Source of the DNA: an uncultured Alphaproteobacteria bacterium
Lineage (GTDB): Bacteria; Pseudomonadota; Alphaproteobacteria; GCA-2731375
Direction: 5' to 3'
Assembly: GCA_951812805.1 (NCBI GenBank)
Contig: CATOSZ010000016.1
Location: 1 to 64,000, forward strand
Length of the DNA stretch: 64,000 bases
The notes below the pieces were generated by a model. It worked only from the letters and a program-made list of their open reading frames with translations, was not told the origin of the DNA and did no database searches. The position numbers and the translations under genes were made by a program. Positions 48,329 through 60,111 of the stretch are shown here, in pieces. Every line of letters starts with the position of its first letter. The first letter of the stretch is position 1.

Positions 48329-49567
48329 ATGACCACCTCCGACGACATTGAAATGCGCGCGCTGTTCGACGCCGTGCCGGTCTCGGTGCGGGTCGAGGAT
48401 CTCTCCGGCATCAAGCGGCGCATCGACGCCTTGGGCATCGCGGATCCCGGCGAGTTTTCGCACTATCTGGATCGCCATCCGGATTTCATCGCCGCCTGCG
48501 CCGGTGAAATCCGGGTCGTCGACGTCAACGCATCGGCACTCGAACTGCATGGCTTCGCCACGCGCGAGGCATTCATCGATACGGTCACGCAGAACTTCAC
48601 CGAAAAGCACTTACGGGCGATCCGCGGCGGCATCGAAGCGATCCATGCCGGCAAGACATTGCTGGAGTTCGAGTCGACCATCACCCGCAACGACGGCACC
48701 AGCCGCATCGTCATGGTCCGCTGGACCGTGCCGCCCGGCAACGAGGCGACCTATGCCCGCACCCTGCTGACCTCGACGGACATCACGGACCTGCGCCGGG
48801 CCGAGGAGATGCTGCGCCACTCCCAGAAGCTGGAAGCGATCGGCCAGATCGCCGGCGGCGTGGCGCACGATTTCAACAACCTGCTGGCGGTGATCCACGG
48901 CAACGCCGAACTGCTGGACACCCACGACGGCCCGATCACGGAGCTGACCGCCAGCATTCGCCGCGCGACCCGGCGGGGCGCCGAACTCACCCAGCGACTG
49001 CTCGCCTTTTCGGGCCGCCAGCCGCTCAGGCCCCGGGCGATCGACCTGGCCGGCCTGGTGGATTCCATGACCGCACTGCTGTCGCGCACGCTCGGGTCCG
49101 CCATCACCGTCGAAACGCGGATCGACCCGGACGTCCGCCCGATCCTGGCGGATCCCGGCCAGGTCGAAAGCGCCCTGCTGAACCTGGCGCTCAACGCCCG
49201 CGATGCGATGGCGATCGGTGGGCGGCTGGTCATCTCCGCCGGGAATGTCGGCGCGGACAGGGCCGGCGAGGGCCGACAGGGGCAAGCCTATCTTTCCATT
49301 ACCGACAGCGGCACAGGCATGTCCGCGGAGGTGCGCGAGCGGGCGTTCGAGCCGTTCTTCACGACCAAGGAGATCGGCAAGGGCAGCGGCCTCGGCCTCT
49401 CGATGGTCTATGGTTTCGCCCGGCAATCCGGTGGCAGCGTCGAGATCGACAGCGACGAGGGACGCGGCACGACGGTGACGATCTATCTGCCCTGCGGCGA
49501 GACCCCCGCCGAAGCGGTGGAAGACGCGGCGACGAGCCTGCCGCCGCGCGGCGACAACCAGATGTGA
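48329..49567 (+). pseudogene. PAS histidine kinase, 3'-truncated by IS21 copy 2
   Basis: The remaining 412 residues hold an N-terminal region and a PAS-like domain (about 50-155), HisKA with His180 in GGVAHDFNNLLAV, and a complete ATPase domain ([51 protein letters not shown]). IS21 begins at 49563, so the final Met and the TGA are IS-derived. Kinases of this GGVAHDFNN class commonly carry a receiver domain about 20 residues after the ATPase domain, which is just where the break lies; loss of such a domain is inferred. The kinase core may still be made. Confidence 0.85.
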
Positions 49568-49651
49568 ATCGGCATGCAAAACTGACCCACTTTGGTGGGT
49601 TATGAGCGGTAAGAATTGACCCACCTGGAACGCTAGCATCCGCACGGAACA

Positions 49652-51178
49652 GTGCGGAGGAAAGAGCAGGTGGTATTGATGGAAAGCGTATTGAAGATCC
49701 GACGTTGGATATTACGGGAGGGTCGGAGTATCCGATCTGTATCTCGTCAGACTGGTTTGTCGCGGAACACGATTAAGAAGTATCTGAAGGACGGCGATCC
49801 ACCGAGCTATCAGCGGCGCGTTTCACTCGTCCGGCGTAAGCTTAGCGATGGCTTCGCCAGCCGGCTTCGGGCGCTCTTTGAGCAGGACCTGGGGCGCCCG
49901 CGCCGTGAGCGCCGGACGGCCAAGAAGCTTTATGAGCAGCTTGTGTCGGAAGGCTATAGCGGATCCTACTCGACGGTTCAGAGGTTTGTCCGCGACCTGA
50001 AGCGTTCTGGCGCCGGATCGGGGGATGCGTTCATTCCGTTGCACTTTACGGCAGGTGACGCGCTCCAGTTTGACTGGAGCACGGAATACGCTGTCCTGGG
50101 CGGTGTCGAGCAGAAGGTAAAGGTTGCCCACTTCCGCCTATGTCATAGCCGCAAGCCCTTTGTTGTTGCCTATCCCAGCGAATCTCAGGAGATGGTGCTG
50201 GACGCCTTTGCACGGGCGATGTCTTTCTATGGCGGCGTACCGCGCCGGGTGATCATCGACAACCCCAAGACGATGGTAACCTATGTTTCGCGCTCTAAGG
50301 ACCGTGTGTTCCATCCGCGCTTTCTGGCGTTGATGAACCACTATGTGATGGAACCGGTTGCTTGCACACCCGCGGCGGGGTGGGAGAAGGGTCAGATTGA
50401 GAACCAGGTTGGGTTCCTGCGGGGACAGCTGTTTGCGCCCAAGCCCGCCTTTGACGATCTGGATGCGCTGAACGGCTGGTTGCGTCTGCGCTGCGAGGAA
50501 TTGGCGAATCGCGCCCACCCCGAACAATCGGATCGCAAGATCTCGGACGTGTTCGCAGACGAGTGCGCCGAACTGCGTCCCCTGGGCCGGGCTTTTGACG
50601 GCTATGTTGAGAAGGCCGCTCGTGTCCGCTCTACCTGTCTGGTCCAATATGCCACCAATCGCTATAGCGTCCCCTCCCGGTTCGCCGGGGAGCTTGTCTC
50701 TCTGCGCGCCTATGCGGACCGGATCGTGGTTGTGTCAGGGCAGAATGTGATTGCCGAGCACAAGCGCCGCTTTACCCGCAACGCCAGCTATTTCGAGCCC
50801 TGGCATTACCTGCCCCTACTCGACCGCAAGCCCGGCGCGCTGAGAGATGGCGCGCCCTTTGTGGGTTGGCAATTGCCTGAGGCGATGCACCGGGTCAGGG
50901 CGCATTACATGGCCGGCAAAGGCGGGGACCGGGAGTTTGTCGATCTGCTCCTGCTGGCCCAGGATCACGGGATCGAGGTGGTCGAGATAGCCTGTGAACT
51001 GGCCGTGGAGCAGAACACGCTGCGCCTTCCGGCCATCATCAATCTGATCAACCAACTGGTGGAGCCGGTCATCGCGCCATGGGGCGAGAGCCACGCCTAT
51101 CCGCAACTGACCTTGCGGCCCGAAGCGGACTGCAAGCGCTATGAGACGCTGTGCGTTGCCGGGGAGGCCGTCGCATGA
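49652..51178 (+). CDS. istA: IstA transposase of IS21 copy 2
   Basis: The protein has 508 residues with a helix-turn-helix near the N-terminus and the DDE triad in [16 protein letters not shown] and KGQIENQVG. It differs from the copy at 2026-3552 by Leu59 for Pro59. GCGGAGG lies upstream; the internal ATG at 49679 is an alternative start. Its stop overlaps the istB ATG. Confidence 0.95.
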
Positions 51179-51906
51179 AAGCTTTGATAGACCAACTGAT
51201 CGCCCTGAGGCTGTATGGAATGGCGGCTTGCGCCGAAGCTTTGCTGGCCGCGCGCAAGCCGCCAAGTCTGACCACTGCGATAAAGCAACTGATCGACGCC
51301 GAGACTGTAGAGCGCCGGGTGCGCTCTATCCAGCACCAAATGCGGGCCTCGAAGTTCCCCCACCATAAGGACTTCGCCACTTTCGATTACGGCCTAGCCG
51401 CCGTCACCCAAGCGCAAATCGACCCCTTCTGCTCAGGGCAGTTCACCCAGGAGGCCCACAACCTCATTCTGGTGGGCGGAACCGGTACGGGCAAAACCCA
51501 CATCGCCATTGCTCTGGGGACGCTGTTGATCAATCAGGGAAAGAAGGTCCGTTTCTTCAACGCCGTCGATCTGATCAATGCGCTGATCAAGGAACAGGCC
51601 GAAGGCAACGCCGGCAAGATCATCCGGCAACTGACGGCCATGGATTGCGTCATCATCGACGAACTGGGCTATATCCCATTCCCCAAATCCGGCGGTGCGC
51701 TCTTGTTCCACCTGATCAGCAAACTCTATGAGAAGACCAGCGTCATCATCACCACCAATCTGGAGTTCGGGGAATGGGTCTCCGTCTTCGGAGATGCAAA
51801 AATGACAACCGCGTTGCTGGATCGTGTAACGCATCACTGCGCAATCATCGAAACAGGCAACATGTCTTACCGCTTCGCACAAAGCAAACAGCGACGACAA
51901 AAGTAG
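51175..51906 (+). CDS. istB: IstB helper ATPase of IS21 copy 2
   Basis: The protein has 243 residues, an AAA+ ATPase related to DnaC. Walker [10 protein letters not shown] is at about 101-109 and Walker [12 protein letters not shown] at about 150-160; [10 protein letters not shown] carries the sensor 1 region. The C-terminus [15 protein letters not shown] is typical of IstB. The ATG lies in the ATGA overlap with istA. This is the only intact istB in the window and probably serves both IS21 copies. Confidence 0.95.
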
Positions 51907-51918
51907 CCGCCCTGTAAG

Positions 51919-51968
51919 CAAAGCCCCAGGCTGATCCGCTATATGGAGCCAATCAGCCTGGGGGCTTT
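51919..51968 (+). terminator. Hairpin terminator after istB (copy 2)
   Basis: AAAGCCCCAGGCTGAT pairs with ATCAGCCTGGGGGCTTT across a loop of about 16 bases, starting 13 bp after the istB stop. The same hairpin occurs at 64-114. Confidence 0.65.
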
Positions 51969-52201
51969 CATCGCAAAGGCGGGCAAATCAAAACGGGTCC
52001 TGTACAGATTGTTCTGCAAAAGGGGTTTCGTAGCTGGGGCACAAGTCCGGGCCGATGGGGTGGATGAGCTGCCTCCGGCTGGTCCGGGCTCTCGCGATCG
52101 AAATCCATGAGGACTGGCTGGATGCCAACCGCTAGCTCAACATGATCCATCTCAAGGAGAGCAAAAGCGAACGCATCCAGAAAGCCGCCTGACGGCGGCT
52201 C

Positions 52202-52249
52202 GGCATGCCTGGCGCTCCGAGCAATCGAAATCTCCGCGCCAGGCATGCC
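52202..52249. repeat. Perfect 14-bp inverted repeat with 20-base loop
   Basis: GGCATGCCTGGCGC at 52202-52215 pairs perfectly with GCGCCAGGCATGCC at 52236-52249. It lies right after the degraded frame described for the passenger segment and could be its terminator. No T-run follows. Confidence 0.7.
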
Positions 52250-52361
52250 GGTGGCCCTCATCGGCAGCCATGACAAACTTGCAGAACAGTCTGGACACTA
52301 CTTCAAAAGCTCATTGCCACTTCAAGAACCCCACCTGATCCCCACGTTCCGCCGCCGGCCC

Positions 52362-52468
52362 GGTTGTCCCGGTGGGCCCACAGGCCCCTCCCACGCGGCT
52401 TCGCTCCGCGTAACGCAAAGCGCTACACGAAGCCGCGCGGGGCCCTCCCGTGGACTACCGGGACAACC
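52362..52468. repeat. Long imperfect hairpin in the IS21 passenger segment
   Basis: The outer arms GGTTGTCCCGGT (52362-52373) and ACCGGGACAACC (52457-52468) are perfect complements. An inner pair, GCGGCTTCG and CGAAGCCGC, is also perfect, and the stretch between them pairs in part. The 107-bp structure could be a structured RNA, a REP-like palindrome or a recombination site; nothing decides between these. Confidence 0.6.
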
Positions 52469-52523
52469 TCCGTCGAAGCAAGGGGGGGGTCAATTTTGCA
52501 CGCCGATAGGGGGTCAGAATTAA

Positions 52524-52640
52524 ATGCTGATTGACACCCTGGTCGCGGAACTTATGGCCCGGCTCGCCGAGGCGTTGGACGAGATTGACAACCTTCGTGC
52601 GGATCTCGCACCCTATTGCCTTCAGGGCTCTTTCTTGTGA
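52524..52640 (+). CDS. Short prophage reading frame fused to the IS21 right end
   Basis: Thirty-eight codons begin at an ATG inside the IS21 terminal repeat and end MARLAEALDEIDNLRADLAPYCLQGSFL. The stop overlaps the GTG of the methyltransferase gene (GTGA), as do the other genes in this cassette, so the 3' part is probably the end of a real phage gene. Its true N-terminus was lost at the IS21 junction; the first four residues come from the IS. It may serve only to couple translation. Confidence 0.45.
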   Translation: MLIDTLVAELMARLAEALDEIDNLRADLAPYCLQGSFL

Positions 52641-53398
52641 ACAACGCGTACCGCATCGGCGAGGCGACCATCTACCGGGGCGATTGCCTGGATCTCCTGC
52701 CCACGCTCGGCCCGGTCGACCACGTGATCACGGACCCGCCCTACGAGGCCGCCCTGCACCGGGCCGCGGCGGAGGGCCGGATCCAACGCGCCGACGGCCA
52801 GGCGCCGCCGCGCGGGTTCGAGTTCGCCGGCATCGACGCGATCCGCGAGGAGGCGGCCCGGACCATGGTGACGGCCGCGCGGGGCTGGCTCCTGGCGTTC
52901 GCCCTCGCCGAGGGCGTCGGCGCCTGGCGCGACGCCATCCAGGCGGCCGGCGGCAAGTGGGACACGACGCTCTGCTGGGTGAAGCCGGACGCGACCCCCA
53001 GGTTCAACGGCCAGGGCGCGGCGCGCGGCTTCGAATGTATCGTCTCCGCCTGGTGCGGCACCGGCCATCGGCGCTGGAATGGCGGCGGGCGGCGCGGTGT
53101 GTTCACCTATCCGACCGCCAAGGGCGGCCATCCGACGGCCAAGCCGCTGGCGCTGATGATGGCGCTGATCCAGCTCTACACCCAACCGGGCGATCTAATC
53201 TGCGATCCCTTCATGGGCTCGGGCACGACGGGCGTGGCGGCCATCGCGCTCGGCCGGCGCTTCCTCGGCATCGAGATCGAGCCTGGATACCACGAGATCG
53301 CACGCCGCCGGCTCGAGGCCCGCGTGGCCCAGCCACTGCTGCCGTTCGACGTCCCCGCCACCCAACAGGCTCCACTGCCGCTGGAGGACGCGGGGTGA
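52637..53398 (+). CDS. Phage DNA methyltransferase (DPPY type)
   Basis: The protein has 253 residues. Catalytic motif IV is TDPPYEAALH at residues 32-41 and the S-adenosylmethionine motif I is DPFMGSGTTGVAA near 189, so the order is IV then I, with the target-recognition region between (the beta-like arrangement of N6-adenine or N4-cytosine enzymes). GTG 52637 overlaps the preceding stop. No restriction endonuclease gene is next to it; in Mu-like phages such lone enzymes usually protect phage DNA. Its own stop overlaps the GTG of the next gene. Confidence 0.88.
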   Translation: MNNAYRIGEATIYRGDCLDLLPTLGPVDHVITDPPYEAALHRAAAEGRIQRADGQAPPRGFEFAGIDAIREEAARTMVTAARGWLLAFALAEGVGAWRDAIQAAGGKWDTTLCWVKPDATPRFNGQGAARGFECIVSAWCGTGHRRWNGGGRRGVFTYPTAKGGHPTAKPLALMMALIQLYTQPGDLICDPFMGSGTTGVAAIALGRRFLGIEIEPGYHEIARRRLEARVAQPLLPFDVPATQQAPLPLEDAG

Positions 53399-53727
53399 CG
53401 ACGCTACCGGGCGTGCTTTCCGAGATCGAGGCGCTCGCGGGGCGCGGGGCGGCGCTCGGAATCGCTCTGGCGCACGGCGGCGACGACGGTTGGGACGTGC
53501 CGCGCGCACTCGATACGCCACCGGGCCAGGCGCTGGCAGGCCTCGTCGGCGCCGAAGCGGCGGCCGCGATCGTCGGCCGCTTCGGTGGCGGGGCGATTGC
53601 CGTGCCGCTCGCGCGGCGCGCCCTGGTGCGACATCTCGCGGCACAAGGCATGAGCACGGCCGAGATCGCGCGGCGGCTCGCCATCACCCGGCGCACCGCG
53701 CGGCGCTACCGGCGGCACGGCGCGTAA
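53395..53727 (+). CDS. Mor-family middle transcription activator
   Basis: The protein has 110 residues. The layout fits phage Mu Mor/C: an N-terminal dimerisation region, the central VGRFGGGAIAVPLARRA (Mu Mor has a comparable FGGxxxYIP-type segment), and a C-terminal helix-turn-helix (MSTAEIARRLAITRRTARRYRRHG). GTG 53395 overlaps the methyltransferase stop. A perfect palindrome and -10 box lie just downstream, before the lysis and head genes it would switch on. Confidence 0.78.
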   Translation: MTTLPGVLSEIEALAGRGAALGIALAHGGDDGWDVPRALDTPPGQALAGLVGAEAAAAIVGRFGGGAIAVPLARRALVRHLAAQGMSTAEIARRLAITRRTARRYRRHGA

Positions 53728-53740
53728 GACCGCCTGTGCG

Positions 53741-53792
53741 GCGGACCATGGTCCGCTGCAACCGCCTGCCGGGATGCGCGATAATCCCCTCC
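53741..53792 (+). promoter_or_regulatory. Predicted Mor-dependent promoter of the lysis and head genes
   Basis: GCGGACCATGGTCCGC (53741-53756) is a perfect 16-bp palindrome. GATAAT at 53780-53785 is a good -10 and there is no -35. If the -10 ends at -7, transcription starts at 53792 and the palindrome is centred at -43.5. That is the position of the Mor-binding dyad in the Mu middle promoter, as I recall it. The predicted transcript begins 26 bp before the holin gene. Confidence 0.6.
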
Positions 53793-53817
53793 CGACCCCA
53801 GCCCGACAGGACACGCG

Positions 53818-54315
53818 ATGATCATCTCCCTGATTTCCACCGGCCTCGGCATGCTCGGCGGCGTCATCCCTGACCTCCTGAAGGAGTTCCGCGAGAGCCG
53901 CGAGCACGGGCGCGAGATGGACCGCATGGACAAGCAGGCTGAGCTGCAACTGAAGCTGCTGGCGCACCGGACCGACGCCCGCCTTCAGGAGATCGAGGGC
54001 CAAGCGCAGATGGAGGAGGTGCGCGCCTTCCGCACCCAGATGTCGGAGATCTACAAATCCCAGGCGCCGGTCGGCGTGAAGTGGGTCGACGCCTGGAACG
54101 CCGCCCTGCGGCCCGGCGCCTGCACCGTCATCATCGCGCTGTTCACCGCGATCGCCGGCACGTACGCCTACGGGATGTATTTTGGCGCGCCGCATCTGGC
54201 CGAGATCTCCACGGTGATCTGGGGTTCGCTGGTCGGCGATGCGATCCAGGCCGTGCTCGGCTATCTGTTCGGCTACCGCTCCGGCGCGAAGCTCTCGGCG
54301 GCGGTCAGGCGATGA
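53818..54315 (+). CDS. Phage holin-like membrane protein
   Basis: The protein has 165 residues. A short hydrophobic N-terminus (MIISLISTGLGMLGGVIP) is followed by a charged coiled region (about 20-85) and two hydrophobic stretches at about 102-123 and 128-150. This layout resembles the 3TM holin family of Mu-like phages and gene transfer agents. It lies directly before the lysozyme gene with ATGA overlap, which supports a lysis role: it would let the lysozyme reach the cell wall. Confidence 0.72.
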   Translation: MIISLISTGLGMLGGVIPDLLKEFRESREHGREMDRMDKQAELQLKLLAHRTDARLQEIEGQAQMEEVRAFRTQMSEIYKSQAPVGVKWVDAWNAALRPGACTVIIALFTAIAGTYAYGMYFGAPHLAEISTVIWGSLVGDAIQAVLGYLFGYRSGAKLSAAVRR

Positions 54316-54773
54316 GCCGGCGCCGCGCCCCGGTCTGCCGCCGGGCAGTCCGCCTGATCAAGCACTTCGAGGGCTTCTCGGCGGAACCCTATCTCTGCCC
54401 CGCCGGGGTCTTGACCATCGGCCACGGCGCCACCTATGGCGTCGATGGGCGCCGCGTCGGCCTGGACCACCCGCCGCTCGACGCGGCGGGCGCGGAAGCG
54501 CTGCTGCGGCGCGATCTCGCGCGCTTCGCTCTCGCGGTCGACCGCATGGTGGTCGTGCCGATCGGCACCAACCAGCACGGCGCGCTGACCTCTTTCGCCT
54601 TCAACCTCGGATCGGGCGCACTGCGCGCCTCGACCCTGCTGCGCCGCGTCAACGCCGGCGCGTGGGACGACGTGCCGGATCAGTTCCGCCGCTGGGTGTT
54701 CGCCGGCGGGCGGCGGCTTGCCGGCCTGGTCCGCCGGCGCGAGGCCGAAGCCGCTCTCTGGGGGATGACATGA
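54312..54773 (+). CDS. Phage lysozyme (GH24 type endolysin)
   Basis: The protein has 153 residues. The T4-type catalytic pattern E-x8-(D/C)-x5-T is present as Glu in KHFEGFSAEPY, Cys in LCPAG and Thr in VLTIGHG, with Cys in the place of Asp as in many phage enzymes. The C-terminal lobe has QHGALTSFAFNLGSGAL and RRWVFAGGRRLAGLVRRREAE. There is no signal or anchor segment, so it would need the adjacent holin. It overlaps its neighbours on both sides by four bases. Confidence 0.92.
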   Translation: MSRRRAPVCRRAVRLIKHFEGFSAEPYLCPAGVLTIGHGATYGVDGRRVGLDHPPLDAAGAEALLRRDLARFALAVDRMVVVPIGTNQHGALTSFAFNLGSGALRASTLLRRVNAGAWDDVPDQFRRWVFAGGRRLAGLVRRREAEAALWGMT

Positions 54774-55081
54774 GCGCCGAGGAGATCACCGGCTGGCTGG
54801 TGCGCGCCGCTGTCGCCGCGATCGTCGCTGCCATCGTGCTGCTGTTCCGCCGCATGCGCGAGGCCGAGGCCAGGCTGGCCGAGACGAAGGTGCGCCTCGC
54901 GGCGGTCGAGAAGCAGGACAACTCGGCGACCTTCGGCGCACTGCGGAATCGGATCGAGGAGCTCGACCGTATCTCGGCGGAAACCCGCGCCGATGTCGCC
55001 GCCGTCAAGGCCTCGGTCGCCGCCATCGAACGGACGCTACACCTGATTCATGAGCATCTGATGGACAAGGGGGTGCCGTGA
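54770..55081 (+). CDS. DUF2730-type phage protein (Mu gp25-like)
   Basis: The protein has 103 residues: one membrane segment near the N-terminus (about 9-27, WLVRAAVAAIVAAIVLLF) and then a long heptad-rich coiled coil to the end (EAEARLAETKVRLAAVEKQ...ISAETRADVAAVKASVAAIERTL). This is the usual form of the protein between lysis and packaging genes in Mu-like phages. Its function is not known; some spanin-like role has been suggested by position only. Confidence 0.7.
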   Translation: MSAEEITGWLVRAAVAAIVAAIVLLFRRMREAEARLAETKVRLAAVEKQDNSATFGALRNRIEELDRISAETRADVAAVKASVAAIERTLHLIHEHLMDKGVP

Positions 55082-55380
55082 GCTCTTACGCCCGCATCGT
55101 GGCCGAGGATATGCGCCTCGTCGTTCTGCAGCTCCTGGCGCAAGCCGAAGGCTTCGATCTCAACGACCGCATCCTGGCCAGCGCGCTGACCGCGTTCGGC
55201 CACCGCCCGAGCCTCGACAGGCTCGCCACCGAGCTCGCCTGGCTGGCCGAACAGGGCCTGATCGAGACCCGCGACGTCGAGGGCTTCACCGTCGCCGCGC
55301 TTCTGGCCCGGGGCCAGGATGTCGTCGAGGGCCGCACCGCCGCGCCCGGGGTCCGCCGCCCGCGCCCGGACGAACTCTGA
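55078..55380 (+). CDS. Mu gp26-like phage protein
   Basis: The protein has 100 residues with a winged-helix look: RIVAEDMRLVVLQLLAQAEGFDLND, then RPSLDRLATELAWLAEQGLI and TVAALLARGQDVVEG, ending in a basic proline-rich tail. It matches the small protein found at this place in Mu-like phages, sometimes annotated as a regulator. The GTG overlaps the preceding stop. Role unknown; a DNA-binding or packaging function is possible. Confidence 0.7.
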   Translation: MSSYARIVAEDMRLVVLQLLAQAEGFDLNDRILASALTAFGHRPSLDRLATELAWLAEQGLIETRDVEGFTVAALLARGQDVVEGRTAAPGVRRPRPDEL

Positions 55381-55383
55381 ACC

Positions 55384-55923
55384 ATGCCGCGCCGCGCTCT
55401 GATCGACCGCCATTTCTCGGCCGAGGAGCAGGCCAGTATCGCCGCCTTCCTCGACGCCAACCCCACGATCAGCGTCGACGACTTCCGCGCCCTGCTGCGC
55501 GAGCGCGGCGCCGAGCTCTCCCGCTCCACCGCGCATGCCGCCAAGCGCAAGCTCGAGGCGATGGGCGGCCGGCTGCGCGAATCGCGGAGGATGATGGATG
55601 CCATCGCCACGGATCTCGAGGGCGAGGACGAGAGCCGGCGCCACCGCGCGTTGTTGGAGATCGCGCGCACACTGTGCTTCGAGTTCCAGCAGGCACTGCT
55701 CGATGGCGACGCCAGCACCCTGAAGGCCGGCGATCTCGCCCACCTGGGGCGCTCCCTCAAGGATCTGATGCAGGCTGCCCGCCTCGATCAGGACTATGCC
55801 GCCCGCCTGGTCGAGCAGGCCACCAAGCGCGCCGCCCAGGCGGCCGGCCAACAGGCCCGCAAGCTCGGCCTCTCCGAGGAGGGCGCCGCCTCGATCCGCG
55901 CGTTCGTGGAGGGCGGCGCATGA
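55384..55923 (+). CDS. DUF3486-type protein (Mu gp27-like, probable small terminase)
   Basis: The protein has 179 residues. The N-terminal region RRALIDRHFSAEEQASIAAFLD...SRSTAHAAKRKLEAM looks like a helix-turn-helix that would bind phage DNA, followed by a helical oligomerisation region. It fits Mu gp27, which by position next to the large terminase is taken as the small terminase. It overlaps the next gene by four bases. Confidence 0.82.
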   Translation: MPRRALIDRHFSAEEQASIAAFLDANPTISVDDFRALLRERGAELSRSTAHAAKRKLEAMGGRLRESRRMMDAIATDLEGEDESRRHRALLEIARTLCFEFQQALLDGDASTLKAGDLAHLGRSLKDLMQAARLDQDYAARLVEQATKRAAQAAGQQARKLGLSEEGAASIRAFVEGGA

Positions 55924-57359
55924 AGGACGCGCGCACCTTGCTCCCTTACCAGCAGCGCTGGGTCGCCGAGACGAGCGGATTGGCGGCGATCCAGAAGTCC
56001 AGACGGATCGGCATCTCCTGGGCCGAGGCATATAACGCGGTAATGCACGCCGGCCTCGGGCGCGGCGACGTGTACTACCAGTCCTATTCCCTCGACATGG
56101 CGCGCGGCTTCGTCGCCGACTGCGCCGAGTGGGTCGAGCACTGCCAGGGCATCGCGATCGAGACCGCCGGCGAGACCTTGATCGACACCGGTGATTCCCA
56201 CGCCGTGCAGGCCTTCCGCCTGCGCCTCGCCGCGGGCAAGACCATCACCGCCCTCGCGTCCAGTCCACGGGCCTGGCGCTCCAAGGGTCGGCCCGGCGAT
56301 ATTGCCGTCATCGACGAGGCCGCCTTCATCGACGATCTCGAGGCCGTGCTGACCGCCGCGCTGGCGACCCGCATGTGGGGCGGCGCGGTGCGCGTGATCT
56401 CCACTCATAACGGCGAGGCCAACCCCTTCGCCGCGCTCTGCCGCGATATCGCCGAGCGCCGCCAGCCGGGCGCGCTGCATACCGTCACGCTGGCCGACGC
56501 ACTTCACGAGGGCCTTTACAAGCGCATCTGCATGGTTACCGGGCAGCACTGGACGGGCGCGGCCGAGGCGGCCTGGGAGGCGGGGTTGCGTGCCGAATAC
56601 GGCGCCCGCGCCGCCCAGGAGCTCGACTGCGTGCCCTCGGCCGGCTCGGGCGCCTGGCTCGCCTGGAAGGCGATCACCGATGCCGAGGACGCGGAGGCCG
56701 GCAAAGCGGAACTGTATGCGGGCGGCACCACCTATATCGGCGTCGATGTCGCGCGGCGGCGCGATCTCTGGGTCGCCGCCGTCATCGAGAAGGTCGGCGA
56801 TGTCTTGTGGCTGCGCGAGATCCAGACGGCGCGCGATATCTCCTTCTCCGAACAGCGCGCGATCGTGCGCACGCTCGCCGCTCGCTACCGCCCGCTCCGC
56901 ATCGCCGTCGATCAGACCGGCATGGGCGAGGCCGTCGTCGAGCAGCTGGCCGAGGATCACGGCGGCCTCACCGTCGAGGGCGTGCTGATGACGACCCCCA
57001 AACGGCTCGACGTCGCCACCGCGCTGCGCGAGGCCTTCGAGGACAACCGTATTCGTATCCCCGCCGACGAGGCGCTGCGGCGCGACCTGCACAGCCTGCG
57101 CGCCGAAGCCGGGCCCACGGGCGCCCCCCGGCTGACCGCCGAGCGAGCCGACACCGACGGCCACGGCGACCGCTTCTGGGCCCTCGCGCTCGCCTGCGCC
57201 GCTGCTGCCCAGGCCCGCGGCCCCTTCGAGGCCTGGACCACGGACCGCCGGCACGCCGCCTTCCGCGCGCCCGATGGACTGGGACCCGGCAGTGGCCACG
57301 AGATCGACTACGAACTCGGCGTCGTGCGCTCGCCCCTCTCGGCTCTGAACGGGTGGTGA
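55920..57359 (+). CDS. Phage terminase large subunit (Mu gp28-like)
   Basis: The protein has 479 residues. It would cut and pump phage DNA into heads. The ATPase has a Walker A-like QKSRRIGISWA near residue 26 and Walker B IAVIDEAAF near 128. The nuclease part has Asp in YIGVDVARRRDLW (about 275), Asp in RIAVDQTGMGE, and a final acidic patch in DGHGDRFWALALA. The length is normal and no frameshift is seen. ATG 55920 overlaps the preceding stop. Confidence 0.92.
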   Translation: MKDARTLLPYQQRWVAETSGLAAIQKSRRIGISWAEAYNAVMHAGLGRGDVYYQSYSLDMARGFVADCAEWVEHCQGIAIETAGETLIDTGDSHAVQAFRLRLAAGKTITALASSPRAWRSKGRPGDIAVIDEAAFIDDLEAVLTAALATRMWGGAVRVISTHNGEANPFAALCRDIAERRQPGALHTVTLADALHEGLYKRICMVTGQHWTGAAEAAWEAGLRAEYGARAAQELDCVPSAGSGAWLAWKAITDAEDAEAGKAELYAGGTTYIGVDVARRRDLWVAAVIEKVGDVLWLREIQTARDISFSEQRAIVRTLAARYRPLRIAVDQTGMGEAVVEQLAEDHGGLTVEGVLMTTPKRLDVATALREAFEDNRIRIPADEALRRDLHSLRAEAGPTGAPRLTAERADTDGHGDRFWALALACAAAAQARGPFEAWTTDRRHAAFRAPDGLGPGSGHEIDYELGVVRSPLSALNGW

Positions 57360-57361
57360 GC

Positions 57362-58849
57362 ATGGCGAAAGACCTCCCCGCGACGCCCGACACCGCCGAG
57401 ATCGCCGCGCCCGAGGCCGGCCGCGAGGGTATCGGCGCCTGGATCGATGCCTGGCTCGACGAGATGGGCGCGTTCGCCGGTGATCCCCGCCAGTGGCGAA
57501 GCGGCCCCGCCTCGATCTCCGCCGCCACGGCGGCACTCACCGATCCCCATGCCCGCGCCGTGCTCGACCAGCGCCTCGACGCCGGCACCGCCGCGCCGCT
57601 CGAGATCGAACCCGGCGGCACGGCGCGGCGCGACCGCATCGCCGCCGAGGACCTCGCCGGGCAGCTCGAGGCCATCGAGATCGACCGCGTCAGCCGGGAG
57701 CTGCTGCACGCCGTCTGGTACGGCTATGCCATCGCCGAGTGCCTCTGGGAGATCGACGGCGCCCAGGCCCGCCTCGCCGACCTCAAGGTGCGCGACCCCG
57801 GCCGATTCCGCTTCCGCCCCGACGGCAGCCCGCTGCTGATCACCCGGGACCGGCCGCGCGGGATCGAGTTGCCGTCGGCCAAGTTCACCGTACTGCGCCA
57901 ACCCCGCCAGCACGGCGGCCAGCCGCACGGCCCCGGCGTCGCCCGCTGGTGCCTCTGGCCCGTCTGGTTGAAGCGACAGGGCGTCCGCTTCTGGTCGACC
58001 GCGTTGGAGAAGTTCGGCATGCCCGCCCTCGTGATCTCGCTCCGGGGCGAGGCCTGTCCCGAGGAGGTCGACTTGGCCCTTAGAACCGTAAACGCCGTCA
58101 TCGGCGGCGCCGGCGTCGTGACCAAGGAGGGCCAGAAGATTGAGACCCTCGACTCCCAGCGCCGCGCCGGCGGCGACTACAAGGAGTTCACCGCCGCCAT
58201 GGACGGCATGATCGCCGACGCCGTGCTCGGCCAGCGCGCCACCAGCGAGATCGGCCCCTGGCAGGCCACGGCCGAGGTCCATGCCGAGGTGCTGCAACGC
58301 CTCGTCGCCGCCGACGCACGACGCCTCTCCGCCGCCCTCCAGCACTCCCTCGCCACCTGGCTCACCCACTGGAACCACCCAGGCGCCGCCGTGCCGCGCT
58401 TGATCCGCGACACCGCCCCGCCGGAAGACCTGGAGCGCCGCGCGAACCGCGATGACATCGTCGCCCGGATGTCCGAGCTCAAGCCGACCCAAGCCTATGT
58501 CGAGCGCACCTACGGGGGAGAATGGGAAGCGGCGGCGCCCTCGACGCCGCCCGCGCGGGCCGAGGAGGAGCGTCTGGCGCTCGCGGGACCCAGGCGGGCG
58601 GGCGACGCTATCGATCGGGCCGTCGACGCGCTGATCGAAGACGAAGGCTGGACACGCATCATGGAGCCCATCGTCCAGCCGGTGCTCGACGCCGCCACCG
58701 ACGCCCCTGGATTCGCGACATTCCGCCAAAGGCTCGACGGCGAGGCGTTGCAAAACGCCATGGACACGAGCGAGCTGGCCACCACGTTGCACCGCACGAC
58801 CTTCTCGGCCGAGATCGCCGGACAGGGCGAACCCGAGGGCGGAAGGTAG
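57362..58849 (+). CDS. Phage portal protein (DUF935, Mu gp29-like)
   Basis: The protein has 495 residues. DUF935 features include LLHAVWYGYAIAECLWEI, VLRQPRQHGGQPHGPGVARWCLWPVWLKRQG, FWSTALEKFGMPALVISL and QRATSEIGPWQATAEVH. It would form the portal ring through which DNA enters the head. A GTG at 57356, overlapping the terminase stop, is an equally good start and would add two residues. Full length, so this gene appears intact. Confidence 0.92.
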   Translation: MAKDLPATPDTAEIAAPEAGREGIGAWIDAWLDEMGAFAGDPRQWRSGPASISAATAALTDPHARAVLDQRLDAGTAAPLEIEPGGTARRDRIAAEDLAGQLEAIEIDRVSRELLHAVWYGYAIAECLWEIDGAQARLADLKVRDPGRFRFRPDGSPLLITRDRPRGIELPSAKFTVLRQPRQHGGQPHGPGVARWCLWPVWLKRQGVRFWSTALEKFGMPALVISLRGEACPEEVDLALRTVNAVIGGAGVVTKEGQKIETLDSQRRAGGDYKEFTAAMDGMIADAVLGQRATSEIGPWQATAEVHAEVLQRLVAADARRLSAALQHSLATWLTHWNHPGAAVPRLIRDTAPPEDLERRANRDDIVARMSELKPTQAYVERTYGGEWEAAAPSTPPARAEEERLALAGPRRAGDAIDRAVDALIEDEGWTRIMEPIVQPVLDAATDAPGFATFRQRLDGEALQNAMDTSELATTLHRTTFSAEIAGQGEPEGGR

Positions 58850-58852
58850 GCC

Positions 58853-59059
58853 ATGGCCGGACGCGAAGACGCACAAGACGATATCCGGCCCGGCCACTGG
58901 ATGCGCTGGCCAGCGGGACGGCGCAATGGCCGCATTCAACGTCTACTCCACGACGACCATGGTGGCCTCGCCGGCGCCGTGCTGGAAGCCGACGGCGGCG
59001 GATGGATTGCCGCCGCCGTCGGCGAGCTCACGCCTATCTCCCCCCGCGGCCTGAACTGA
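58853..59059 (+). CDS. Small phage protein of unknown function
   Basis: The protein has 68 residues, lying snugly between the portal and F-like genes (three bases after the portal stop, nine before the next ATG) with GGAAGG upstream. It begins MAGREDAQDDIRPGHWMRWP and has no recognised domain. The coding case rests on spacing and ribosome site alone. Confidence 0.5.
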   Translation: MAGREDAQDDIRPGHWMRWPAGRRNGRIQRLLHDDHGGLAGAVLEADGGGWIAAAVGELTPISPRGLN

Positions 59060-59068
59060 AGACCGATC

Positions 59069-59830
59069 ATGGCGGACCCCGAGATCCTCGACGTCCCGCC
59101 CCTGGAGGCGATCGAGCACTTCCGCGCCAAGGGCTACCATATCGGCTACCACTGGCTCGACACCGACGCCGCACGGCACACCGCCTCCTTCACCGTCGCC
59201 AAGGTGGCGCAGCTCGACATTCTCGAGGACATCCGCGCCGCCGTGGACGCGGCGGTCGCCGAGGGCAAGACCTACGACTGGTTCCAGGGCGAACTCGAAC
59301 CCATTCTGCGCCGCAAGGGCTGGTGGGGCCGCGAGCGCATGATCGATCCCCTGACCGGCGAGAGCCAGATCGTCCAACTCGGCTCGCCCCATCGTCTGCG
59401 CATCATCTTCGACACCAATCTCCGCATGGCCTACGCCCATGGCCGCTGGGAAAAGATCGAACGGCTCGCCGACCGATTGCCCTATCTCCGCTACGTCGCC
59501 GTTCAGGACAGGCGCACCCGGCCCGAACACATGGCCTGGCATGGCACCGTGCTGCGCTGGGACGACCCCTTCTGGCACAGCCACTATCCGCCCAACGGCT
59601 GGAAATGCCGTTGCATCGTCCAGCAGCTCGGCGAAGACGATCTCGAGCGCTACGGTCACGCCGTCTCCGATCGCCCACCCGACGGCTGGGACCGGACCCG
59701 GGATTGGCTCGACAAGCGCAACGGACAGATCCACCGGATCCCGGTCGGCATCGATCCGGGCTTCGCCCACAACGTCGGACTCGTCGATCCCGCCGCGCAG
59801 GCCCAGCGCCTGCTCGATCAAAGGACGTAG
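59069..59830 (+). CDS. Phage minor head protein (Mu gpF-like)
   Basis: The protein has 253 residues. The Mu F-like domain is seen in LRIIFDTNLRMAYAHGRWEKIERL, the block RTRPEHMAWHGTVLRWDDPFW and the Cys motif NGWKCRCIVQQLGEDDL. These proteins take part in head assembly. It is shorter than Mu gpF, which has a long C-terminal part; the stop here comes after VGLVDPAAQAQRLLDQRT, so truncation is possible. It is the last recognisable phage gene before the prophage end. Confidence 0.88.
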   Translation: MADPEILDVPPLEAIEHFRAKGYHIGYHWLDTDAARHTASFTVAKVAQLDILEDIRAAVDAAVAEGKTYDWFQGELEPILRRKGWWGRERMIDPLTGESQIVQLGSPHRLRIIFDTNLRMAYAHGRWEKIERLADRLPYLRYVAVQDRRTRPEHMAWHGTVLRWDDPFWHSHYPPNGWKCRCIVQQLGEDDLERYGHAVSDRPPDGWDRTRDWLDKRNGQIHRIPVGIDPGFAHNVGLVDPAAQAQRLLDQRT

Positions 59831-60111
59831 TCCCGGCCGCCGTTCCTCGGTTTGGCAACCGCGAATCGACGCTCCCGGAAATGGCCGATTTTGGCGCGAA
59901 TTCAGGGGGCTGAAAATGGGCCTTTTCGATCCGTTTCCAGCCAATTCACGGCACCTGAACGGCCATTTTGACAAATATTTTCGATTAACCGATTCCGGCC
60001 TCGATAGGCCCGCCGATCACCTCCAACCTACTGATCCAGAAAGACTTTGTTCGGAATAGTCCGACCTCATCCGAGATAGTCCGGATTCTTAGTCTTTTCT
60101 GTCTCCCCACA
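59831..60111. other. Non-coding stretch and likely right end of the Mu-like prophage
   Basis: No gene is supported. Two copies of ATAGTCCG occur at 60056-60063 and 60076-60083, exactly 20 bp apart, each in a similar context (TCGGAATAGTCCGA and CCGAGATAGTCCGG). Read from the other side, the sequence begins TGTGGGGAGACAG at about 60111, and the conserved host gene frame stops matching its family there. A 5'-TG end with tandem transposase sites fits a Mu-type right end. Mu-like tail genes, expected after F, are absent. Confidence 0.55.

Follow-up and report, generated by a model that had tools for sequence, protein, structure and literature searches.

What is the function of a perfect 16-bp palindrome, GCGGACCATGGTCCGC, that fills part of the gap between a regulator gene and a set of lysis genes (53741-53756)? 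A sequence-only reading of the window, meaning the whole 64-kb stretch of DNA that was analysed, had placed this palindrome where an activator of the Mor type would bind in front of a promoter, and its description of the locus holds. The palindrome lies 13 bp past the stop of a 110-codon gene (53395-53727) and 61 bp ahead of the ATG at 53818, and belongs to an extended symmetry, GCG-palindrome-TGC, with one pair mismatched (53738-53759). Several relatives of the window element have GCA-palindrome-TGC at this place. Downstream, the plus strand reads GATAAT (53780-53785), a proposed -10 hexamer matching TATAAT at five of six bases, and no sigma-70 -35/-10 pair was found on either strand within 53400-54000. 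With the hexamer set as -12 to -7, transcription is predicted to start at 53792 on the plus strand and the palindrome covers -51 to -36, with its centre at -43.5. The geometry given in that reading for the Mu middle promoter agrees with the Mor site published by the Howe laboratory: at Mu Pm, Mor binds a 16-bp element from -51 to -36, centred at -43.5, and a -10 is present with no -35 (PMC4390567, PMC4287176). The window site has this same arrangement, its start being a predicted one. We consider it highly probable, judging from sequence comparison, that GCGGACCATGGTCCGC is the site where the Mor/C-type activator encoded upstream turns on the lysis-terminase-portal operon, and that one such activator serves all late genes.

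The 16-bp symmetry alone proves nothing, because the window contains two perfect 16-bp palindromes and 20 base shuffles gave a mean of 2.3. Of these two, GCGGACCATGGTCCGC is the only one outside the called genes, and also the only one with an in-register -10-like hexamer. A chance palindrome beside a chance -10 would account for the locus if nothing but this expectation of about two per window were considered; the confinement of the word to one element family and the conservation of its register across diverged phages render it practically negligible. The palindrome could also act at the RNA level, as a terminator or processing hairpin after the activator gene, in keeping with its self-complementarity and, in the window copy, its place directly past the stop codon. 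We regard this as extremely unlikely. No terminator was called within 53400-54000 and no T tract follows the palindrome, while a perfect palindrome without loop bases makes a poor RNA hairpin. In relatives, moreover, the site does not always follow the activator gene, and -10-like hexamers occur on both of its sides.

The distribution of the word is far more telling than its symmetry. A pattern scan of the 7.42-Mb source genome found nine exact copies of GCGGACCATGGTCCGC, all of them inside copies of the Mu-like element, compared with 0.011 expected from base composition; the reversed pattern, used as a control, had 0 occurrences. Six copies adjoin the activator gene, and five of these, the window copy included, are identical to each other over 301 bp. 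The sixth (C3:347506) is 88% identical, with the palindrome kept and different bases between the stop codon and the palindrome. The remaining three, ~17 kb distant, are in two larger element copies, next to the protease gene. Among 385 genomes of the same class, six contain the word: the source genome with its nine sites, and five others with one site each, which showed neither an activator match nor a TGC flank.

Neither a tblastn search of phage records nor a scan of genome contigs with the window's activator protein gave a match, and the DNA pattern was used for scanning instead. The exact word was present in 19 viral contigs. Eight were assigned to the phage group of the window (L032, L034, L036, L040, L041, L042, L043, L047), and in four of these eight an activator gene of 54-60% sequence identity is present; the other four, each a partial phage, had no activator gene in the available stretch. 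Six contigs with a different context were set apart (L031, L033, L037, L038, L039, L044); there, a TATTAT- or GATAAT-like stretch follows GCGGACCATGGTCCGC after a few bases, in a different geometry. The occurrences in L029, L030, L035, L045, and L046 look like chance and were dropped before counting. A genome scan with GCGGACCATGGTCCGC plus TGC retrieved 38 loci, at which the TGC flank was selected by the scan pattern and the -10 was not. Four genomes with activator genes, i.e. two Rhodobacteraceae MAGs, Ruegeria atlantica, and one Vicinamibacteraceae-labelled MAG, contributed 31 of these loci; the remaining seven, single matches elsewhere at loci without an activator gene, were set aside. When at most one mismatch was allowed, the four genomes with activator genes had 32, 12, 3, and 1 sites, accompanied by 8, 5, 1, and 1 activator genes, respectively, and the reversed word again had 0 occurrences. 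The eight and five activator gene copies belong, with clusters of sites, to the single genomes of the MAGs CATOSB01 and CATOSU01, whose phages seem to be present in many copies per genome. The exact word did not occur in the literature text searched, where its inner 12-mer appeared only in an unrelated diatom paper, and such a late regulon was not described among the literature titles returned by topic searches.

The spacing between the palindrome and the -10 was compared on the flanks of the sites. Merging flanks with at most nine differences in their first 45 bases reduced 54 flanks to 47 distinct ones, L047 being removed. In these, TANNNT occurred 14 times over 54 offsets, and 13 of the 14 were at offset 23 or 24 past the palindrome. 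The 31 flanks beginning with TG had 12 TANNNT at offset 23 or 24, compared with a mean of 0.35 and a maximum of 3 in 2000 shuffles. Base conservation was read from 45 flanks, of which 32 begin with TG or TA (L068, kept in the 47-flank count, was omitted here). In the 32 flanks, the conserved bases were T at -12 (22/32), A at -11 (21/32), and T at -7 (22/32), and the TATAAT score peaked at offset 24 (3.06, mean 1.10). Offset 24 corresponds to -12, therefore the palindrome occupies -51 to -36 in the relatives as well. The sequence-only reading had pointed to related Mu-like phages as the place to look for the dyad, and there both the palindrome and a -10 at equal distance recur. Shared ancestry without function is an unlikely reason for this, because the flanks have diverged.

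The palindrome belongs to the right-arm remnant of a Mu-like element (52537-60111, plus strand), delimited by alignment to complete copies and with a right end reading ...CTCCCCACA. To the left, the remnant is bounded by an insertion (49563-52536, plus strand), IS21-type in our reading of its IstA/IstB-like gene pair and of the Mu-transpos_C_2 and rve domains of the IstA-like protein. An element of this type was also seen in or beside several prophage copies of the source genome. The genes named below are all on the plus strand. Upstream of the activator gene lies a DNA methyltransferase (52640-53398; PF01555, E 2.9e-27). The first gene past the promoter encodes a 165-aa protein of unknown function (53818-54315; PHROG 6637, E 3.9e-11), which matches the holin PHROG 3427 weakly (E 0.035). 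It is followed by a phage lysozyme, or endolysin (54312-54773; PF00959, E 2.2e-39), a 103-aa protein with a weak Rz-like spanin match (54770-55081; PHROG 7686, E 0.018), a 100-aa protein of unknown function (55078-55380; PHROG 436, E 1.4e-31), a Mu Gp27-like terminase small subunit (55384-55923; PF11985, E 5.3e-22, PHROG 426), the terminase large subunit (55920-57359; PF17289, PHROG 2), a Mu-type portal protein (57362-58849; PF06074, E 2.2e-77), and a Mu F-like minor head protein (59069-59830; PF04233, E 1.3e-22). These genes are open and closely match those of the larger copy.

Two near-complete copies are present in the source genome (C3:1034343-1074009 and C3:817877 to ~857911). TG...CA ends and a 5-bp target duplication are a hallmark of Mu-type transposition, and the complete copies have such ends with the duplications CCGGG and GACGA, in addition to a transposase (PHROG 310), a Mu-type portal, and an F-like protein, which makes them Mu-like transposing phages. 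Genes and starts were called with our own script, and functions were assigned by PHROG matches. The left arm, on the minus strand, encodes the head protease, scaffold, major head, major tail, tape measure, and central fibre proteins; the right arm, on the plus strand, the transposase, methyltransferase, activator, lysis, terminase, portal, and F-like proteins. One palindrome stands ahead of each arm. One of the near-complete copies has a 399-bp unit (L022:12002-12400, C3:834002-834400) that is missing from the other, consisting of a promoter flank, two small ORFs (48 and 52 codons), and the next palindrome, with the junction inside the palindrome. It looks as if recombination between palindromes had brought in or removed this small-gene cassette. 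In the window copy, the transposase, the repressor, and the head/tail arm have been lost, and of the two ends only the right one is present. Because it is the right arm only, its circuit is partial. For its activator gene, the upstream part has been replaced by the IS21-type element. Expression of the window copy would depend on activator from its own gene or from elsewhere in the genome, where the two near-complete copies could supply it in trans.

Which protein would bind the palindrome? The gene at 53395-53727 has a GTG start and encodes 110 aa with a C-terminal HTH and the recognition helix ITRRTARRY. Residues 3-107 match PHROG 836, annotated as late transcriptional activator (E 2.5e-15). 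Pfam PF08765 was not matched by this protein at E 0.1, and was matched by 19 of the 26 aligned family members (best 1.5e-9); because the direct match is found in relatives only, we use the name Mor/C-type and do not call the protein a Pfam Mor member. A profile of the 26 homologs matches the PDB chain of Mor (1rr7) with an E of 1.7e-4, and in hhalign the homolog profile matches Mu C with an E of 3.3e-5 and a probability of 72%. The predicted structure (pLDDT 95) ends in an HTH. Fold searches (Foldseek, VIA-align) gave mainly generic C-terminal HTH matches, none with an E of 0.001 or less and the Mor structure not among them, and NCBIfam gave nothing useful. The Mor-like proteins that occur with the recurring palindrome are 50-60% identical and come from Rhodobacteraceae and viral contigs; these homologs keep R-x-x-RRY in the recognition helix. 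The sequence-only reading had named the gene mor. The Mor/C-type family assignment stands, whereas Mor alone seems too narrow a name: judged by where its gene lies, just ahead of the lysis genes, and by the further sites served, the predicted activator appears to combine Mu C and Mor.

The wider activator family behaves differently. In 21 regions downstream of distant homologs (20 loci and Rhizobium phage RR1-B), no in-register dyad with a -10 scored better than shuffles, while the window, as positive control, did. Likewise, no repeated palindrome of such geometry was found around more distant homologs in ten regions spanning at most 40 kb each; the same scan recovered the known word in two elements, one from Ruegeria atlantica (RUE, L127-L129) and one from MAG CATOSB01 (CSB, L130-L132), and missed it in E1067, for which the -10 rule was too strict. 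Since these regions around distant homologs lack a repeated palindrome of such geometry, the wider family does not share the strong palindrome.

Within the family of the window, the sites stand before late genes. Each complete relative has 2-4 sites and one Mor/C-type activator, and one activator homolog was found per element. A lysis-side site, after or near the activator gene, is present in the window and its copies, in RUE, CSB, and L042, and in the element of MAG CATOSU01 (CSU, L133-L135); two Rhodobacteraceae elements have 0.9-1.5 kb between this site and the activator gene. A head-protease site is present in the elements of the source genome and, by alignment, in RUE, CSB, CSU, L032, L036, and L041, while the protease of L040 is of another family (PHROG 328). 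In five phages (RUE, CSB, L032, L036, L040), one palindrome lies between the protease gene and an endolysin-, amidase- or lysozyme-type gene, both pointing away from it. In six of the seven protease genes of one family (E1067 (L019), L127, L133, L032, L036, L041), the likely ATG is 36-37 bases past the palindrome, i.e. at the predicted +1/+2, and in CSB it is at 40. L040, with its protease start 179-182 bases past the palindrome, was left out of this count. Thus, the capsid message may be leaderless, its protease start codon coinciding with the predicted +1/+2.

A further site precedes a DNA methyltransferase gene (phrog_56) in RUE, CSB, and L036, as well as in CSU and L041, recognized by the same leader. 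A methyltransferase gene also adjoins the activator gene in the window. These neighbours raise the idea that the palindrome, with its core GGACC/GGTCC and CCATGG, is a recognition or regulatory site of the methyltransferase. However, a 16-bp word that is conserved, locked to a -10, and in many cases extended by GCA/TGC greatly exceeds the usual length of a methylation site, and the enzymes differ, being of the PF01555 type by the window's activator gene and of the phrog_56 type at the sites of the relatives. We therefore consider a methyltransferase site very unlikely.

The leader itself is conserved over ~120-150 nt between the palindrome promoter and the methyltransferase gene in five phages (L036:12570-12690, L041:9563-9683, L131:1037-1160, L064:3968-4091, L127:18217-18340). 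It also occurs without the palindrome in six more viral contigs (L143-L148), with a similar gene next in at least four; a match in L149 was due to chance and was left out of the alignment. The consensus fold of the 11 sequences has 28 pairs, four of them with compensatory changes, and no Rfam family was matched. In some sequences, base pairing of CTCCCACGA with TCGTGGGAG close to the start codon is also possible, so that this leader might act as a translational switch; Mu mom/com is the system to compare. In L148 (~840-860), a different perfect 16-bp palindrome, GGGGAACATGTTCCCC, takes the place of the usual word before the leader, possibly as an operator variant.

How would the switch work? 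The comparison shows the word, its confinement to these elements, the constant -10 register, the genes around the sites, and one activator homolog per element. We infer that the activator binds the palindrome, that it activates, and that RNA starts at 53792. A dimer at -51 to -36 would take over the role of the -35 element and bring RNA polymerase of the host to the -10 (53780-53785), from where the lysis-terminase-portal operon would be transcribed. Since complete copies have the same site ahead of their head-protease operon, which runs on the other strand, and relatives have it at further genes, one activator would control all late genes. The palindrome could instead be the operator of another protein, a phage repressor or a host regulator, which blocks these promoters while the Mor-like protein acts elsewhere. 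Perfect palindromes are common as repressor sites, and in the complete copy the gene of a CI-type repressor (1052839-1053495) is close to the protease-side site. Nevertheless, on both arms the site stands in place of the -35, at a constant distance from the -10, which fits an activator; an ordinary -35 that a repressor could block was not found within 53400-54000. The sites are also found at late genes, and in the complete copy no site with at most two mismatches was found at the start of the activator gene or at the transposase. A repressor operator is thus unlikely, and activation by the Mor/C-type protein is our preferred explanation.

A palindrome situated between opposed genes would provide a single dimer site for the two. 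In-register hexamers on both sides were found in RUE (TAGAGT/TAGTGT) and L040 (TAGTGT/TATGAT). In L032, L036, and CSB, one or both are weaker or one base off register, and a clean -10 is absent on some sides (RUE 240147, TTAAAC; CSB 39493, left side). Whether one dimer on one fully symmetric palindrome drives a late promoter on each side, one for capsid and one for lysis, with equidistant -10s, is to us an even bet. If true, two polymerases would compete for one site, and the balance between capsid and lysis expression would follow from this competition.

Most of what is known of Mor and C comes from Mu and E. coli. In the present case, comparing sequences was by itself enough to give a candidate operator, its register, and its regulon. 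They belong to a separate lineage of Mu-like phages with a predicted one-step late switch and a rearranged genome, in which the head/tail arm is on the strand opposite to the lysis/packaging arm. The regularity of the operator makes it directly testable which activator goes with which promoter and whether two opposed promoters share one site.

The closest known system is Mu. Our own scan of the Mu record did not find the Pm and Plys dyads (best 4/8 pairs), so the Mu geometry used here rests on the papers. Pm shares with our sites the 16-bp dyad at -51 to -36 centred at -43.5, the -10, and the missing -35 (PMC4390567, PMC4287176), and in both cases an activator of the same extended family is encoded by a Mu-like transposing element. 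In contrast, the Mu dyad has 5-bp arms and a G/C-rich 6-bp spacer (PMC4390567, PMC4287176), while all 16 bp are symmetric here, often with the GCA/TGC extension; and Pm is a single promoter, while here the word recurs at 2-4 promoters of each element. The likeness to C lies in the regulon. In Mu, mom is the DNA-modification gene, and the C regulon thereby includes such a gene, as do the relatives here with their methyltransferase. Pmom is listed as a C-dependent late promoter, and Plys, PI, PP, and Pmom are several late promoters with related dyads under one activator, lysis genes included (PMC4287176). Mu needs Mor first and C second (PMC4287176), whereas one homolog per element was found here. 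Unlike the C promoters, some of our sites appear to serve both directions, a feature that leads to a second comparison. Ogr of P2 and Delta of P4 are small activators, each serving several late operons, some of them divergent. The use of one small activator for several late operons is alike; the protein family and the site position are different, and here a single palindrome lies between two opposed -10s. Most likely, GCGGACCATGGTCCGC is the operator of a late regulon with one activator, in which the Mu order of early, Mor, C, and late would be shortened to early, one activator, and late, merging the steps of Mor and C.
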